Shown piece by piece: positions 396 through 45,111 of a stretch of DNA of 64,000 nucleotides. A program made the position numbers and the translations under genes. Source of the stretch: Paenibacillus sp. URB8-2 (GTDB lineage Bacteria; Bacillota; Bacilli; Paenibacillales; Paenibacillaceae); NCBI RefSeq assembly GCF_013393385.1, contig NZ_AP023239.1:3224001-3288000 (forward strand), written 5' to 3'. Below the pieces are notes generated by a model. It saw only the letters and a list, made by a program, of their open reading frames with translations. It was not told the DNA's origin and did not search any database. The first letter of the stretch is position 1; every line of letters starts with the position of its first letter.

Positions 396-2858
396 TCATT
401 CCACCGCCAGCTCGCCCGTTTCCGGGCTTCTGAGGATCAGCTTGCCTTCCGCTGCCGAACCGTCCGGCAGCACCAGCTTCAGCTTGGCGGTGCGCCCTTT
501 TTCAATAAGCGCCTTGATTTGGGTGTCGGTAAGCTGTCTGCCATAACTCTCCTTCCAGATCACGAATCCGCAGCCTTCCTTGTAATGGGAGCATCCGTAC
601 CCCTTGCGGCCCATAAAGATTTGGCCGCCGCAGCCGGGCCGCGGACACGCCCCGATGAACTTAGGCGCGCCGGACCGGGAAGCTCCACCTGCAGAGGCAT
701 CGCCGCCCATCTTCGCGCCGCGTGGCGCCGAAGAAGCGTTGTCACCCGTGGCATCGCCGCCCGTCTTCACGCCGCTCCGCCCCGGAGAAGCCGAGCCCGC
801 TGCGGCGTAACCGTCTGCGGCCGCGTCCAATGCCGCTGCGGCGGACCGGCCTGCGGCCCCTTCCCTAGCGGCTCCGCCAGCCTCGCCTCCCGCTTTCCCG
901 GATGCGCCGCTCCGCCGGCTGCCGGAGCCTGAGCCGTCCTTCCCGCCGCTTGTGCGCCGAGAGCCCCCCCTTCCTTTCCCTCTCGTGCCGGAAGCCGGTT
1001 CGGAGCTTTCAAAGGACATTTTGTCGGCTCGGGACTGCGCGCGGACCTTATCGACGATCATCGCCGCGAATTTTTTTACATTCTCCATAAATTGCAGGTC
1101 CGACGCCACTCCGCGCGAGATTTCAGTCAGACGGCGCTCCCACTGGCCCGTCATTTCCGGAGAAGTCAACAGCTCGACGCCGGCTCCCCGGATCAGCTCG
1201 ATCGCGGTTCGGCCCTTTTGCGTAATCAGAATCTTTTTACCCTGCATCTCGATGTAGCCAACCTTTTTCAGCCGTTCGATCGTTGCCGCTCTGGTCGCCG
1301 GAGTTCCCAGACCCGAATCCTTCATCGCGTCCCGCAGCTCCTCGTCCTCAATCTGCTTGCCTGCGCTTTCCATGGCCTTCAGCAGGGTGCCTTCCGTAAA
1401 AGCCTTCGGCGGCTGAGTCTCCTTCTCCTTCACAACGGCGTCTCCGCAATGCACGCCTTCGCCGGAAACAATGGAGAATGGCTCGCTGACCTCGGTCTCC
1501 TCTTCCTCTTCATCTTCCTTGCCCTTGGCCCTGCCGCCCCTTGGCTTATCCTTCTTCTGATCACTGTAAATGACCTTCCAGCCGAGACTCAGCAGCTCTT
1601 TGACCGTCGTCTTGAACTTTTCTTCCTCTACTTCGGTAATGACGGCATGCATCTTGTATTCGGCGGCAGGATAGAACTGCGACAGGAACCGGCGGACAAT
1701 GAGATCGTACAGCTTCTGCTCGTCGGGACCAAGTCCCGCCGCTTTGCGTCCTGTCGGCAGGATGGCATGGTGATCTTCAACCTTTGCCGGGTTGCAGACA
1801 AACTTGTTACCTTTGTGGACCAGATTTCGGTTGGCGCCTTTCACCCAGTCATCGTAGGCTGTTCCCGTAAGGGAGGACAGCGTCTTATGCATCTCCGGAA
1901 TATTCTGCTCGGTCACATAGTTGGAATTTGTTCGCGGGTACGAAATCACCTTATGCTTCTCGTACAGCGCTTGGGCAAGGTCGAGCGTCTTTTTGGCCGA
2001 AAAACCGAATTTGCCGTTCGCTTCACGCTGCAACAGGGTCAGATCGTACAGCCTATTCGGATATTCTTTCGTTTCCTTAACTTCGTAAGAGGCTATTCGT
2101 CCCGGTTTGCCTTTGACCTTGGCGGCCAGCGCATCCGCTTTATCCTTCTCTGTCAGGCGGTCGCCCTGCCATAAGCCCTTATAAGATACATCTCCCTGCG
2201 TAAAGTGACCCTCCAGCTGAAAAAATTTCAGCGAGGAAAAAGCTTCGATTATCTTCTGTCGCTCATAAATCAGGGCAAGAACAGGCGTCTGCACCCGGCC
2301 AACCGATAGAAGCACGTTATGTCTCGTGGTGAAGGCGCGCGAACCATTCATCCCGATCAGCCAGTCGGCTTCGCTGCGGGCTTTGGCCGCTTTCGTCAAA
2401 TTGTCGTACTCCGAGCCTTCCTTCAGCTCCCGGAAGCCTTTGCGGATCGTCTCGGGCGTAAGATCGGATATCCACAGCCGCTTCACCGGCTGCATCAGCT
2501 TTAAATGCCGCTGGATTAGCGAAAAAATATGCTGTCCCTCCCGCCCGGCGTCACAGGAATTGATCAGAAGATTGCTTCGCTTCGCGAGCTCTCCGATCAC
2601 TTTCAACTGGTCGACGGTCTTCCGGTTCGGAATGAGCTTGAATTGCTCAGGGATGATCGGCAGGTCGCCAATATTCCATTTCTTATATTTCGGATCGTAA
2701 GCCTCGGGCGCCGCCAGTTCGATCAGATGCCCGATGGCCCATGTAATAATATACTGCTCCCCTTCGAGGTAGGAACGGTGATTTTTAGCTTTCGGGTCAA
2801 TTGCGGCGGCGATATTCCGTCCCATATCCGGTTTTTCCGCAATGATCAGTGTCTTCAA
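396..2858 (-). CDS. topB: DNA topoisomerase III (type IA)
   Basis: Type IA topoisomerase that passes single strands through a transient 5'-phosphotyrosyl break; TopB acts in decatenation and recombination intermediates. N-terminal TOPRIM domain with the LIIAEKP lysine/glutamate motif and the acidic SCDAGREGQ motif near residue 103; catalytic tyrosine in ISYPRTNS near residue 307. After the core comes a glycine/serine/alanine/arginine-rich linker of about 100 residues and a C-terminal zinc-ribbon-like module beginning CPRPGCGG. I take the TTG at 2858 as start because AGGGAG sits 9 bases upstream; an in-frame TTG at 2882 would lack this. Length 820 residues, longer than B. subtilis TopB because of the linker. 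No terminator lies between this gene and the T-box/proS scar upstream, so read-through from that leader is possible (inference). A TATAAT at 2912-2917 may also provide its own promoter. Confidence 0.95.
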   Translation of the reverse strand: MKTLIIAEKPDMGRNIAAAIDPKAKNHRSYLEGEQYIITWAIGHLIELAAPEAYDPKYKKWNIGDLPIIPEQFKLIPNRKTVDQLKVIGELAKRSNLLINSCDAGREGQHIFSLIQRHLKLMQPVKRLWISDLTPETIRKGFRELKEGSEYDNLTKAAKARSEADWLIGMNGSRAFTTRHNVLLSVGRVQTPVLALIYERQKIIEAFSSLKFFQLEGHFTQGDVSYKGLWQGDRLTEKDKADALAAKVKGKPGRIASYEVKETKEYPNRLYDLTLLQREANGKFGFSAKKTLDLAQALYEKHKVISYPRTNSNYVTEQNIPEMHKTLSSLTGTAYDDWVKGANRNLVHKGNKFVCNPAKVEDHHAILPTGRKAAGLGPDEQKLYDLIVRRFLSQFYPAAEYKMHAVITEVEEEKFKTTVKELLSLGWKVIYSDQKKDKPRGGRAKGKEDEEEEETEVSEPFSIVSGEGVHCGDAVVKEKETQPPKAFTEGTLLKAMESAGKQIEDEELRDAMKDSGLGTPATRAATIERLKKVGYIEMQGKKILITQKGRTAIELIRGAGVELLTSPEMTGQWERRLTEISRGVASDLQFMENVKKFAAMIVDKVRAQSRADKMSFESSEPASGTRGKGRGGSRRTSGGKDGSGSGSRRSGASGKAGGEAGGAAREGAAGRSAAAALDAAADGYAAAGSASPGRSGVKTGGDATGDNASSAPRGAKMGGDASAGGASRSGAPKFIGACPRPGCGGQIFMGRKGYGCSHYKEGCGFVIWKESYGRQLTDTQIKALIEKGRTAKLKLVLPDGSAAEGKLILRSPETGELAVE

Positions 2859-2919
2859 AAACAATCGCTCCCTGTCTATCAATCTCGGTAGTTAAAAAGG
2901 TCCAGTAGTCTATTATACA

Positions 2920-3122
2920 TCAGATCCGATTGTTTTTAATATGCTCCTTAATGCGCCGGAAGGTCTCCTCCAGCCCGAGCGTCTCTTTAACGCCGCTGAC
3001 CCGGTCCTCGTATTCCACTCTCTCAAGCGCCGCTTCTCTGCCAATCACAACGACCTGCGGCGCCCCGATCAGGCCAGATTCTTTAAATTTGACCCCGGGA
3101 CGCTCCTCTCACTTTGTCGCAT
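2920..3122 (-). pseudogene. proS: proS deletion scar (prolyl-tRNA synthetase remnant)
   Basis: A ribosome binding site (AAGGGGGAA) precedes ATG at 3122, and the first four codons read MRQS, the usual start of bacterial ProS. The reading then meets a stretch that in another frame (3108-2920, about 62 codons) reads EERPGVKFKESGLIGAP and ends in IKEHIKNNRI-stop, clearly the C-terminal anticodon-binding domain of ProS (family motif DDR-ERPGVKF-LIG-P). About 500 internal codons are missing and the two ends are joined out of frame near 3105-3111; the frame from the ATG ends after 17 codons. It lies directly behind a T-box leader, where a T-box-controlled proS is expected. A functional ProS must be encoded elsewhere. 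The remnant identity is read from sequence; the deletion mechanism is unknown. Confidence 0.85.
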
Positions 3123-3137
3123 CCCGATTCCCCCTTA

Positions 3138-3500
3138 ACAAAAATAAAGACACATTCGTCAGGGACGAATGTGTCGTGATACCACCCTAATTCAACTCTC
3201 TGTCTTCAGAGACAGAACAGTCCTTAAAACGGATAACGGCCGTTAACCGGCAGCGTTTCACGCCCGGAGCGCTCGATCAGGATGCGGCTGCACTGCCGCT
3301 TATCCGTCAGAGGACTCTTCAGCCAATGGCCGCATACCCTGGGGACACGGAGCCATATGGCTCAAGCACTTCTTCACTGCAGCTACCAAGGCGGGGGGCA
3401 GGCTGGCGTCTCGGAGAATCTCTCAGCCGGTGGATTCTCTTTCTGTTCCAACGCGTATTCGCAATCAAGAGGGAGGAATTCGGAAATACTGGCTTCAGCG
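3138..3500 (-). promoter_or_regulatory. T-box leader (proline type inferred)
   Basis: Minus-strand leader with the T-box core TTAGGGTGGTATCACG (3190-3175) directly before a strong terminator, GACACATTCGTC/GACGAATGTGTC (3175-3149), followed by a T-rich run. Upstream are Stem I-like elements, including AGAGAATCCACCGGCTGAGAG around 3445-3420. Uncharged tRNA would pair with the TGG in the T-box bulge and allow read-through. Amino acid specificity is inferred from the ProS remnant immediately downstream; CCT at 3402-3400 is one possible specifier but I could not place Stem I with certainty. The 5' end is approximate. The leader starts right after gltD, so it may have its own promoter in the gltD 3' region. 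Confidence 0.88.
3149..3175 (-). terminator. T-box regulatory terminator
   Basis: Perfect 12-bp stem GACACATTCGTC/GACGAATGTGTC with a 3-base loop, followed on the minus strand by TTTATTTTTGTTAA. Its 5' arm is adjacent to the T-box core, as needed for switching with the antiterminator. Confidence 0.9.
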
Positions 3501-3520
3501 TTTCCGCCTGCTTCCATAAC

Positions 3521-5008
3521 TTAAGGCAGAACCGTCGAACCCATCAAATATTTATCCACCTCGCGGGCGGCCGCGCGTCCTTCGTTGATCGCCCATACGA
3601 CCAAGCTTTGTCCGCGGCGCATATCACCGGCGGCGAATACTTTTTCAACATTGGTATTAAATTGGTCGTACCGCGCCTTCACGTTCGTGCGGCGGTCGGT
3701 CTCCAGCTTCAATTCCTGAACCAGATCCTGCTCCGGTCCGTCGAAACCGATGGCGATCAGCGCAAGCTGCGCCGGATAAACCGCTTCGGTGCCGGGAATC
3801 GGCTGGTAAATTTTACGGCCCGTCTCATCCACCATCCGGCGAATGTTGACCGTATGCAGCTCCTTGAGGTTTCCGTTCTCGTCGCCGACGAATTTCGTCG
3901 TCATGATGGAGAACTCGCGCGGGTCGCTGCCGAATATGGCCTTCGCTTCCTGCTGGGCGTAGTCCAGCGTGTATACATTCGGGAACTGCGGCCAAGGATT
4001 CGCGATCGGATCGCGCTCCAGCGGCGCCTGCTCATGCGTACCGAACTGGGTAATGCTATTGCAGCCATGACGCAGCGACGTAGCTACGCAGTCGGAGCCG
4101 GTATCGCCGCCGCCAAGCACGATTACGTCCTTGCCTTCGGCAGATACGAAATTTCCGTCTTCAAGACCCGAAGCCAGGTAGCTCTTGATCGTGCCGTTCA
4201 AATAATCCATAGCGTACATTACGCCGTTCAGATCACTGCCTTCCGCGGTGAACTTGCGGGCTTTGGTCGCACCGCCGCACAGAACGACGGCATCGTACTC
4301 GTCAACCAGCTGCTGCGCCGGGATATCCTTGCCAATCTCCGTGCTTACGACAAAATTCACGCCTTCCGCCGCCAGCAGGTCAACCCGGCGCTGCACGACG
4401 CGCTTGTCGAGCTTCATCGTCGGAATACCGTAGGTCAGCAGTCCGCCGACCCGGTCGCTGCGCTCGTAAACGGTAACCGTATGGCCCGCTTTGTTAAGCT
4501 GCGCCGCCGCCGCGAGTCCGGCGGGTCCTGAGCCGACAATCGCGACTTTTTTGCCTGTGCGTTTCTCTGGAGGCTCCGGAACGACCCAGCCCTCTTCGAA
4601 GCCTTTGTCGATAATGGCCAGCTCGATCGTCTTGATCGTTACCGGTTGTCCGATCAGACCGACCGTACACGATCCCTCGCAGGGAGCCGGACAGATGCTG
4701 CCGGTAAACTCAGGGAAGTTGTTGGTCTTGTGCAGACGCTCCAGCGCCTCCCTCCACAGTCCGCGATATACAAGGTTGTTCCACTCGGGAATGAGGTTGT
4801 GCACCGGGCAGCCCGAAGTGCCGCCGGCCATATCGATTCCGGTATGGCAGTATGGCGTACCGCAGTCCATACAACGTGCCCCTTGCGTCCGCAGCTCCTC
4901 TTCGGACAGATGCTCATGGAACTCCTTCCAGTCCTTCACCCGCTGCTGCGGATCGCGGTCCCCCGGGAGTTGTCTTTTATATTCCATAAATCCAGTAGGT
5001 GTAGACAT
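3521..5008 (-). CDS. gltD: Glutamate synthase small (beta) subunit
   Basis: NADPH-dependent electron-supplying subunit of glutamate synthase, which makes two glutamates from glutamine and 2-oxoglutarate. N-terminal cysteine-rich Fe-S region (CMDCGTPYCHTG, then CPVHN and CPAPCEGSC), an FAD-binding GSGPAGLAAAAQL motif, a second nucleotide-binding GGGDTGSDC motif, and the C-terminal FAAGDMRRGQS signature. I place the start at ATG 5008 (MSTPTGFMEYKR) since family members begin there and GGGGGAT lies upstream; an in-frame ATG at 5038 has no ribosome binding site. Length 495 residues, normal. The large subunit gene gltA/gltB is not adjacent, so it must be elsewhere or GltD-like activity serves another partner. 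Transcribed towards the T-box leader. Confidence 0.93.
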   Translation of the reverse strand: MSTPTGFMEYKRQLPGDRDPQQRVKDWKEFHEHLSEEELRTQGARCMDCGTPYCHTGIDMAGGTSGCPVHNLIPEWNNLVYRGLWREALERLHKTNNFPEFTGSICPAPCEGSCTVGLIGQPVTIKTIELAIIDKGFEEGWVVPEPPEKRTGKKVAIVGSGPAGLAAAAQLNKAGHTVTVYERSDRVGGLLTYGIPTMKLDKRVVQRRVDLLAAEGVNFVVSTEIGKDIPAQQLVDEYDAVVLCGGATKARKFTAEGSDLNGVMYAMDYLNGTIKSYLASGLEDGNFVSAEGKDVIVLGGGDTGSDCVATSLRHGCNSITQFGTHEQAPLERDPIANPWPQFPNVYTLDYAQQEAKAIFGSDPREFSIMTTKFVGDENGNLKELHTVNIRRMVDETGRKIYQPIPGTEAVYPAQLALIAIGFDGPEQDLVQELKLETDRRTNVKARYDQFNTNVEKVFAAGDMRRGQSLVVWAINEGRAAAREVDKYLMGSTVLP

Positions 5009-43107: not shown

Positions 43108-43216
43108 ATAATAACCCTCTCCATTATGGTGTCTTCAGCTTACCACATTTAGGAGATGCACTCAAAATCTCATGTCTTCTAGAGTAAAAGGCTGGCTTGA
43201 CCAGCCCCTCCTCATC

Positions 43217-43249
43217 AAACCGTACGTGAGGTTTTCCCTCATACGGCTT
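43217..43249 (-). ncRNA. Group II intron domain V
   Basis: Hairpin AAGCCGTATGAGG/CCTCACGTACGGTTT with a GAAAA-type loop and the bulged region near the AGC/CCG catalytic triad pattern. Position between the reverse transcriptase stop and domain VI is correct for a group II intron. Confidence 0.8.
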
Positions 43250-43279
43250 TCCGATGTTTGTCATTCATGGGCATGCAGA

Positions 43280-44572
43280 TTACAATAGCGTTTTTAGTCC
43301 ATATTGCTTGGCTAGGTATTTAACCTCCGGTCGTGATCCAATCCATCTCCTGCGCTGTCTCTTCTTTGCATACCACCGGGTTAATCTCTGCAAGATATAC
43401 CAATCTAAAGAGGCTAATTTCTTCTGACTGTAGTTCGTGTAGTAATAATTTCTCCATCCTTGGATCTTCGGATTAAGCCATTCTACATGTTCCACGAACG
43501 ATCTCGAACGCATACTCGGTGGGGACAGTCTTTCTTTGACTACCCCTCGAATACGTTCCTCCGCCTTTTTCGTTAGCCACTGCTGCGTGGTGTAATACAC
43601 CTTGCCTTGAGAGGTTTCTGCCTTCATTTTCCGGTGGTGCATCCCTAAGAAGTCGAATCCTTCCTCTCCTGTCCATAGACCCACAATGCGGGTTTTAGTG
43701 GGGTGTAGGGTTAACTCCAGACGTTCCATTATTTTGCATATAAGCTCATATGCATGTTCGGCGTCCCTTTTGGTTTTACAGACCACTACAAAATCGTCTG
43801 CATACCTTGTCAGTTCTCCTACTCCATTTCCATGTCTCTCCCACAGTCGGTCAAAGTAGTTCAGATAGATATTCGCCAGAAGCGGTGAAATGACGCCTCC
43901 TTGCGGTGTCCCTAATTCGGAACGTCTTACGTTTCCTTCTTCCATAACTCCCGCGTGAAGCCACTTCCATATTAATTTCAGTATCCGTCTGTCATTGATA
44001 CGCATCTGTACCAATTTCATGAGCTTCTCTTGATTAATGTTGTCGAAGTAACCTTGGATATCGACGTCGACTACCCAATTCCCTTTGCGGTTGCAGGCTT
44101 TTCGGATTCGATCTAGCGCTCCTTTCGCACTTCGTTTCGGACGGAATCCGAAGGATACCTCATTGAAATCCGCTTCAAAGATGGGTTCAATCACGAGTTT
44201 CGTTGCCATTTGTATGACTCGGTCGCGCACAGTGGGGATGCCCAGCGGCCTTGTCTTCCCATCTTTCTTTGGGATATAGTGTCGTCGCACGGACTGCGGG
44301 TGGTAGGAACCGTTTTTCAAGTCTTGCTCGCAGGACTTGAGGAACCTCATTTCTCCTTGTTCCTCGATATCTGCGAGCGTTACGGCATCTACTCCTGCAG
44401 CTCCCTTGTTCGCCTTTACTCGCTTCCAGGCTTCACACAGGATGTCCCACCGGTAGACTTTGTCATATAGTGCATGGAATTTACGCTTGTTGTTCTCCTT
44501 GGCCGCATGACCTAGCTTTTCTTGGAGTTGTTGAACTTTTTCCTTTGGTGTTGTTAGCCTTTTGGCATTCAC
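43280..44572 (-). CDS. Group II intron reverse transcriptase/maturase
   Basis: Intron-encoded protein of 430 residues. RT-0/RT motifs GVDAVTLADI, PKKDGKTRPLGIPTVRDRVIQ, EVSFGFRPKRSAKGALD, catalytic YADD (257-260), GTPQGGVISPLLANIYLN, and a maturase X domain (RLTRWYAKKRQRRRW). No HNH endonuclease domain is present after the maturase, and the chain ends KYLAKQYGLKTLL, so it uses an endonuclease-free mobility path. GTG start at 44572 with GGAGGAGG 9 bases upstream. Active-site residues look intact, so the intron may be mobile. Confidence 0.93.
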   Translation of the reverse strand: MNAKRLTTPKEKVQQLQEKLGHAAKENNKRKFHALYDKVYRWDILCEAWKRVKANKGAAGVDAVTLADIEEQGEMRFLKSCEQDLKNGSYHPQSVRRHYIPKKDGKTRPLGIPTVRDRVIQMATKLVIEPIFEADFNEVSFGFRPKRSAKGALDRIRKACNRKGNWVVDVDIQGYFDNINQEKLMKLVQMRINDRRILKLIWKWLHAGVMEEGNVRRSELGTPQGGVISPLLANIYLNYFDRLWERHGNGVGELTRYADDFVVVCKTKRDAEHAYELICKIMERLELTLHPTKTRIVGLWTGEEGFDFLGMHHRKMKAETSQGKVYYTTQQWLTKKAEERIRGVVKERLSPPSMRSRSFVEHVEWLNPKIQGWRNYYYTNYSQKKLASLDWYILQRLTRWYAKKRQRRRWIGSRPEVKYLAKQYGLKTLL

Positions 44573-45111
44573 TCACTCGTACCTCCTCCAAAAGCGTAAA
44601 CAAAGCAGGGCTCCTTCCCTCCCTAAGGTTGTGTTGTCCTTAGGTTCTTCGGTACTATGAGCCCCTCGGACTCCCTTCCCACAGACCATTCATTTCATCT
44701 TCTGGATTTATAGAATGTCTCTTTACGGGTTCCTAAAAAAAAAAAAAAAATTCCCGTGTGGGGGAGGGTCTCCCCAGTTCACTGCATTATCTCTCAACCC
44801 ATGCCGTTCCCTATACGCCGGAGGATTCTTCACTGCTGCTCCAAGTTCTGTACAGTTTCCTTGGCCTTCGTCTATTTTCACGAGACTCGGCACCCTCTTT
44901 TCCCCTTCGCAGGGCCTTTTTGACGGCGCGGCAGGATTCACTTGATGTTGCGGCCTGGATTGTTGCTCGCCCGCTCTCTGACCGGTACTTTCGTCGATGC
45001 GCTTTTACACACAGATTTCGCCATGCGCAAGCATCCTAGCTACAAGGGTGGCTTGGCCCCTCCCTTGGTTGGACTTTCACCAACTAGATAATGCGTGCCT
45101 CTGGGCACGCT

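Follow-up and report, generated by a model that had tools for sequence, protein, structure and literature searches.

Two deletions very probably inactivated a second prolyl-tRNA synthetase locus and its T-box leader recently in Paenibacillus sp. URB8-2

The region between gltD and topB

In close relatives of Paenibacillus sp. URB8-2, there come after gltD, in this order, a likely promoter, the leader of a proline T-box, a gene for a long prolyl-tRNA synthetase (ProS) with an editing domain, and topB. T-box leaders share a general anatomy, in which Stem I, with its specifier loop, reads the tRNA anticodon and the 3' half, with the conserved core and a terminator, binds the tRNA acceptor end. 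The DNA analysed here, hereafter the window, is a stretch of 64,000 nucleotides from the strain's genome (G000), which is assembled as one contig of 5,583,866 bases (5.58 Mb). Between gltD and topB, the window carries remains of such a leader and of such a gene (Table 1). G013, probably Paenibacillus rhizophilus 7197 and hereafter called P. rhizophilus, is the nearest relative found through the leader DNA. Elsewhere on the minus strand of the window, two Rfam parts, RF02003 at 44943-45086 and RF00029 at 43179-43251, suggest a group II intron of about 1.9 kb (43179-45086).

Table 1. Features of the gltD-topB region, with their positions in the window
Feature	Positions	Strand	Evidence
gltD (glutamate synthase small subunit), upstream neighbour	3521..5005	minus	NCBIfam TIGR01317, 756.8 bits
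D1 joint (net 71 bp relative to P. rhizophilus)	3464..3465	minus	alignment with relatives
T-box leader remains: distal part of Stem I, the 3' strand containing the specifier stretch, the core and the terminator	3149..3464	minus	homology to leaders of G013, G033, G029, G107, G108, G120
CCCCCCGCCTTGGTAGCTGC, Stem I base 3' strand with probable CCC specifier; 5' partner deleted	3379..3398	minus	
T-box core TTAGGGTGGTATCACG	3175..3190	minus	
Intrinsic terminator, 12-bp stem with U-run	3149..3175	minus	
17-codon ORF MRQSERSVPGSNLKNLA (then stop) created by the D2 joint; AAGGGGG upstream at 3136-3130	3069..3122	minus	
D2 joint (net 1571 bp relative to P. rhizophilus)	3108..3111	minus	alignment with P. 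rhizophilus
C-terminal 62 codons of long ProS, in a different frame from the ATG	2920..3108	minus	TIGR00409 positions 511-565, 22.9 bits
Candidate topB promoter TTAAAA-16-TATAAT, starting within the last codons of the remnant	2912..2939	minus	consensus scan
topB (DNA topoisomerase III), downstream neighbour	396..2882	minus	NCBIfam NF005829, 666.6 bits

Deletions in the gene and in its leader

What is left of proS consists of its two ends. An ATG at 3122-3120 opens the four codons MRQS (3122-3111), which are joined to the C-terminal codons of ProS in another frame. The remnant, read as EERPGVKF...KNNRI up to its stop codon, has no internal stop codon, and its score against the TIGR00409 profile of the long bacterial-type ProS stays below the cut-off of 306.7 bits that a functional enzyme would be expected to pass. 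The DNA of P. rhizophilus aligns with the window to either side of the joint, over 356 bp at 97.2% identity and 249 bp at 97.6%, and a net 1571 bp lying between these flanks is missing from the window (deletion D2). G033 and G029 have the same arrangement as P. rhizophilus, at lower identity. A preliminary description, made from the letters alone, had already proposed a proS gene collapsed to an MRQS start and its last 62 codons in another frame, behind a ribosome binding site and an ATG downstream of the terminator. All of this was found as claimed, on the minus strand. The identity of the gene is borne out by the profile match and by the relatives that have it in place.

The same description called the T-box complete and held that this regulatory RNA had outlived its gene. 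The core and the 12-bp terminator are indeed intact. Upstream of them, a second joint (D1), where CCCTCTTGA is directly followed by TTGCG, marks a net loss of 71 bp relative to P. rhizophilus. In P. rhizophilus, the corresponding stretch carries a promoter-like TTGACG-17-TAAATT (one site, 0.4 expected in shuffles). At the same places, G033 and G029 have TTGACG and TTGACT, then TAAATT and TAAGTT; the stretch is thus present in these three genomes and missing from the window, while the alignments of G107, G108 and G120 did not reach far enough upstream to cover it. TTGACG also occurs in G035 and G047 but within a terminator-like hairpin, which weakens the promoter reading for these two.

D1 also concerns Stem I. 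The 5' strand of the Stem I base, CAGC-N2-TGACCGAGGAA(A/G)GCAG, is found in all six aligned intact leaders (P. rhizophilus, G033, G029, G107, G108 and G120) and is absent from the window. The gap is clear in two other alignments; the one with the six leaders sets unrelated upstream bases of the window under the missing block. Its partner, CCTTGGTAGCTGC, is retained at 3391-3379, and the two strands pair in the predicted folds of P. rhizophilus and G033. Of the two strands that enclose the specifier loop, the window therefore holds the 3' one and has lost the 5' one at the base. The CCCGCC of the specifier strand is shared by the window and the six intact leaders, and its CCC is probably the proline codon that is read.

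Searches with the Rfam T-box model (RF00230) agree with this loss. No match was obtained in positions 2900-3560 of the window (661 bases) at E ≤ 1 or at E ≤ 10, and the 23 matches that the genome as a whole gives at E ≤ 10 all lie elsewhere. In the equal 661-base stretch of P. rhizophilus, a T-box is found at 39.9 bits (E 2.3e-7, positions 2993-3323 of its locus L087). The first 27 bases of that match are gone in the window, since homology resumes at L087 3020. The other intact leaders score 44.1 (G033), 30.3 (G029), 33.1 (G107), 31.2 (G108) and 30.1 bits (G120), so that all six lie at 30-44 bits, under the gathering score of 93; the alignment of G029 passes over most of Stem I. When 20 loci were scanned, 15 gave a T-box at E ≤ 0.01, with up to 85 bits, likewise short of the gathering score. 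The five that gave none at this threshold are the present locus (L005), that of the short ProS described below (L001), those of G035 (L055) and G047 (L059), and that of P. rhizophilus (L038), which did match in other scans, including the equal-length one. Mere divergence was considered as the cause of the missing match and rejected, because scans of equal size give 39.9 bits in P. rhizophilus and nothing in the window. With the likely promoter and the 5' side of the Stem I base taken away by D1, the leader RNA has very likely lost its function as well; the claim of a complete T-box fails, and that of a surviving regulatory RNA is not supported. Judging from these losses, tRNA-dependent control is very unlikely in a leader that has no whole Stem I and probably no promoter.

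Prolyl-tRNA synthetases in the genome and in the genus

The preliminary description suggested looking for another proS near polC, dxr and rseP. An intact gene for a short ProS (TIGR00408) stands there, between rseP and polC on the same contig, with dxr behind rseP and 15 bases between the end of rseP and the longest open start of proS. It scores 592 bits against a cut-off of 437 in a single open frame without stop codon, and on this basis it appears functional. No other long ProS above the cut-off of 306.7 bits was found in the whole genome. The proposed recent loss of a second ProS, kept behind a T-box leader in relatives while the other one sits in the rseP-proS-polC block, is thus upheld.

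In a set of 100 genomes that includes G000, TIGR00408 passes its cut-off in 97, and the three others are assemblies 71, 72 and 81% complete; TIGR00409 passes in 74 of the same genomes. Within the genus, TIGR00409 is above cut-off in 92 of 100 genomes, a count that takes in P. rhizophilus, whose gene is broken, and G126, where it seems to lie in two halves in separate open frames. G000, G003, G008, G016, G024, G056, G109 and G112 fall below it. By these profile scores, the long ProS is dispensable, eight of the 100 genus genomes, G000 among them, being below the cut-off.

Three frames of the long family, at G066:C69:46110-47375, G133:C1:472671-473900 and G136:C1:409053-410279 (438, 422 and 454 amino acids), match TIGR00409 at both ends but leave out its central part, as would be expected of a ProS lacking the editing insert. 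In G014 (L132, G014:C1:4650000-4662000), a T-box of 69.4 bits and a long ProS are found about 1.5 Mb from gltD, unlike in the relatives where the locus is linked to this gene. Some 9 kb from its long ProS, G085 has an extra ProS-like frame of 530 amino acids (G085:C1:2026570-2027952), which reaches 118 bits against TIGR00408, short of the cut-off.

Of the seven other genomes without long ProS, G003, G008, G016 and G056 were examined at the locus (the contig of G024 stops inside gltD). The distance from gltD to topB is about 2399 bp in G003, 858 in G008, 820 in G016 and 133 in G056, and between the two genes neither a proS (best tblastn E 0.63) nor a leader (best blastn E 0.78, over 16 bases) was found in these four. 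A leader search of the seven other genomes without long ProS gave no match at E ≤ 1e-12. This search is insensitive: it gives hits in no more than 47 of 100 genomes, G000 among them, and is silent in many with an intact gene. No other genome was thus seen to have leader remains and no gene, which does not prove that G000 is unique.

The editing function was followed through free-standing proteins of the tRNA_edit family (PF04073). G000 has three full-length ones and one short frame, G003 and G008 one full-length protein each, and G016 and G056 none. The older losers of the long ProS thus seem, from these searches, to have few or no such proteins; G000 keeps three, so that no editing crisis is implied.

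Interpretation of the locus

Taken together, these observations argue strongly for a second prolyl-tRNA synthetase locus put out of action recently by two deletions. D2 joined the first four codons of proS, out of frame, to the last 62. D1 took away the likely promoter along with the 5' side of the Stem I base, and the leader can therefore no longer build the domain in which the tRNA anticodon is read. If transcribed at all, by read-through from gltD, this leader would simply terminate transcription between gltD and topB, and proline charging would fall entirely to the short ProS.

The age of the deletions was judged from the divergence between the window and P. rhizophilus. The retained leader differs by 1.3% (4 of 311 sites), gltD by 2.2%, topB by 3.2% over its first 1800 bp, and the remnant by 3.3%. 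These low values, and a remnant still free of stop codons, indicate recent events. Changes were also assigned to the two branches by outgroup comparison with G033 and G107. Those derived in the window and those derived in G013 number 4 and 0 among 180 sites of the remnant, 2 and 1 among 311 of the leader, 12 and 8 among 1485 of gltD, and 21 and 17 among 1800 of topB. Faster decay or relaxed selection on the branch of the window was considered; the changes are too few to show it.

The order of events is less certain than the outcome. The proS of P. rhizophilus has a 2-bp deletion relative to G033 and G029, at about L087 4285, which breaks the frame in the part that matches tRNA_edit in G033. 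This frameshift could be genuine, could stem from the draft assembly, or could go back to an early hit that the window had in common with P. rhizophilus, the last being possible because the site falls in the stretch that the window has lost. The gene could then have died already before the two lineages split, the two deletions being later decay. We regard this course as possible and somewhat doubtful: a mistake in the draft assembly or an independent, later mutation could account for the frameshift, and the leader and promoter region of P. rhizophilus look intact. Such an ancestral death changes the order of events and not the main reading. An assembly artefact hiding an intact proS is hardly credible. 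A repeat-driven collapse is unlikely because the longest word common to the ends of the stretch deleted by D2, as seen in P. rhizophilus, has 4 bases; moreover, the genome is a single contig, two separate deletions affect one locus, and the assembly has no long ProS above cut-off to stand for the missing one. It is also very improbable that the T-box still works, its 3' half binding the tRNA acceptor end on a read-through transcript from gltD and switching the 17-codon ORF or topB. The intact core and terminator, the lack of a terminator-like site between gltD and the leader, and the few sites at which the retained leader differs from that of P. rhizophilus would fit such a role. However, Stem I has lost the 5' strand of its base and Rfam finds no T-box; the sole ORF directly behind consists of 17 codons of joint sequence, and the candidate promoter of topB (one found, 0.4 expected in shuffles) sits beyond the terminator. 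For this last reason, control of topB by the leader was set low.

With the two-deletion reading retained, the 3' half of the leader may still serve gltD, since its terminator is the first terminator-like site after this gene in the window, as it is in P. rhizophilus, G033, G029, G107, G108, G120 and G058. In G035, G047, G044 and G049 an earlier site is present; in G012, G018 and G036 the leader lies more than 2.5 kb away from gltD, with a weak 6-bp site before it in G012 and G018. Another terminator-like site stands behind gltD in three genomes that lost the long ProS (G003, G008 and G056), and the same simple scan finds none in G016. A partial exaptation, in which the T-box 3' half would have been selected as a plain gltD terminator once the sensing half and the gene were gone, supposes that this is the only gltD terminator in the clade, and we consider it rather unlikely.

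The case is an ordinary loss of a redundant synthetase at an early stage, an event of a known kind whose stages are still visible. No orphan or decaying proS T-box was found among the titles and opening lines of abstracts listed for the small open-access set of literature consulted, and no first report is claimed. Beside intact sisters and lineages without it, the locus shows a duplicate tRNA synthetase and its riboswitch decaying together. It also shows that a perfect core and terminator are not enough to call a T-box complete, and that the sensing half must be checked.

Compared with the T-box leaders (RF00230) that precede the long ProS in Paenibacillus, the window is homologous in its core and terminator and in what it retains of Stem I (the distal part and the specifier strand), and differs from those of intact relatives by the absence of the likely promoter, of the 5' strand of the Stem I base and of an Rfam match. 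Compared with the long bacterial-type ProS (TIGR00409), it keeps the last 62 codons, in a gene deleted after codon 4 and with a broken frame. Finally, it resembles other losses of redundant aminoacyl-tRNA synthetases in that a second ProS remains; in all four losers examined at the locus no proS or leader was found, whereas G000 still shows remains of both.
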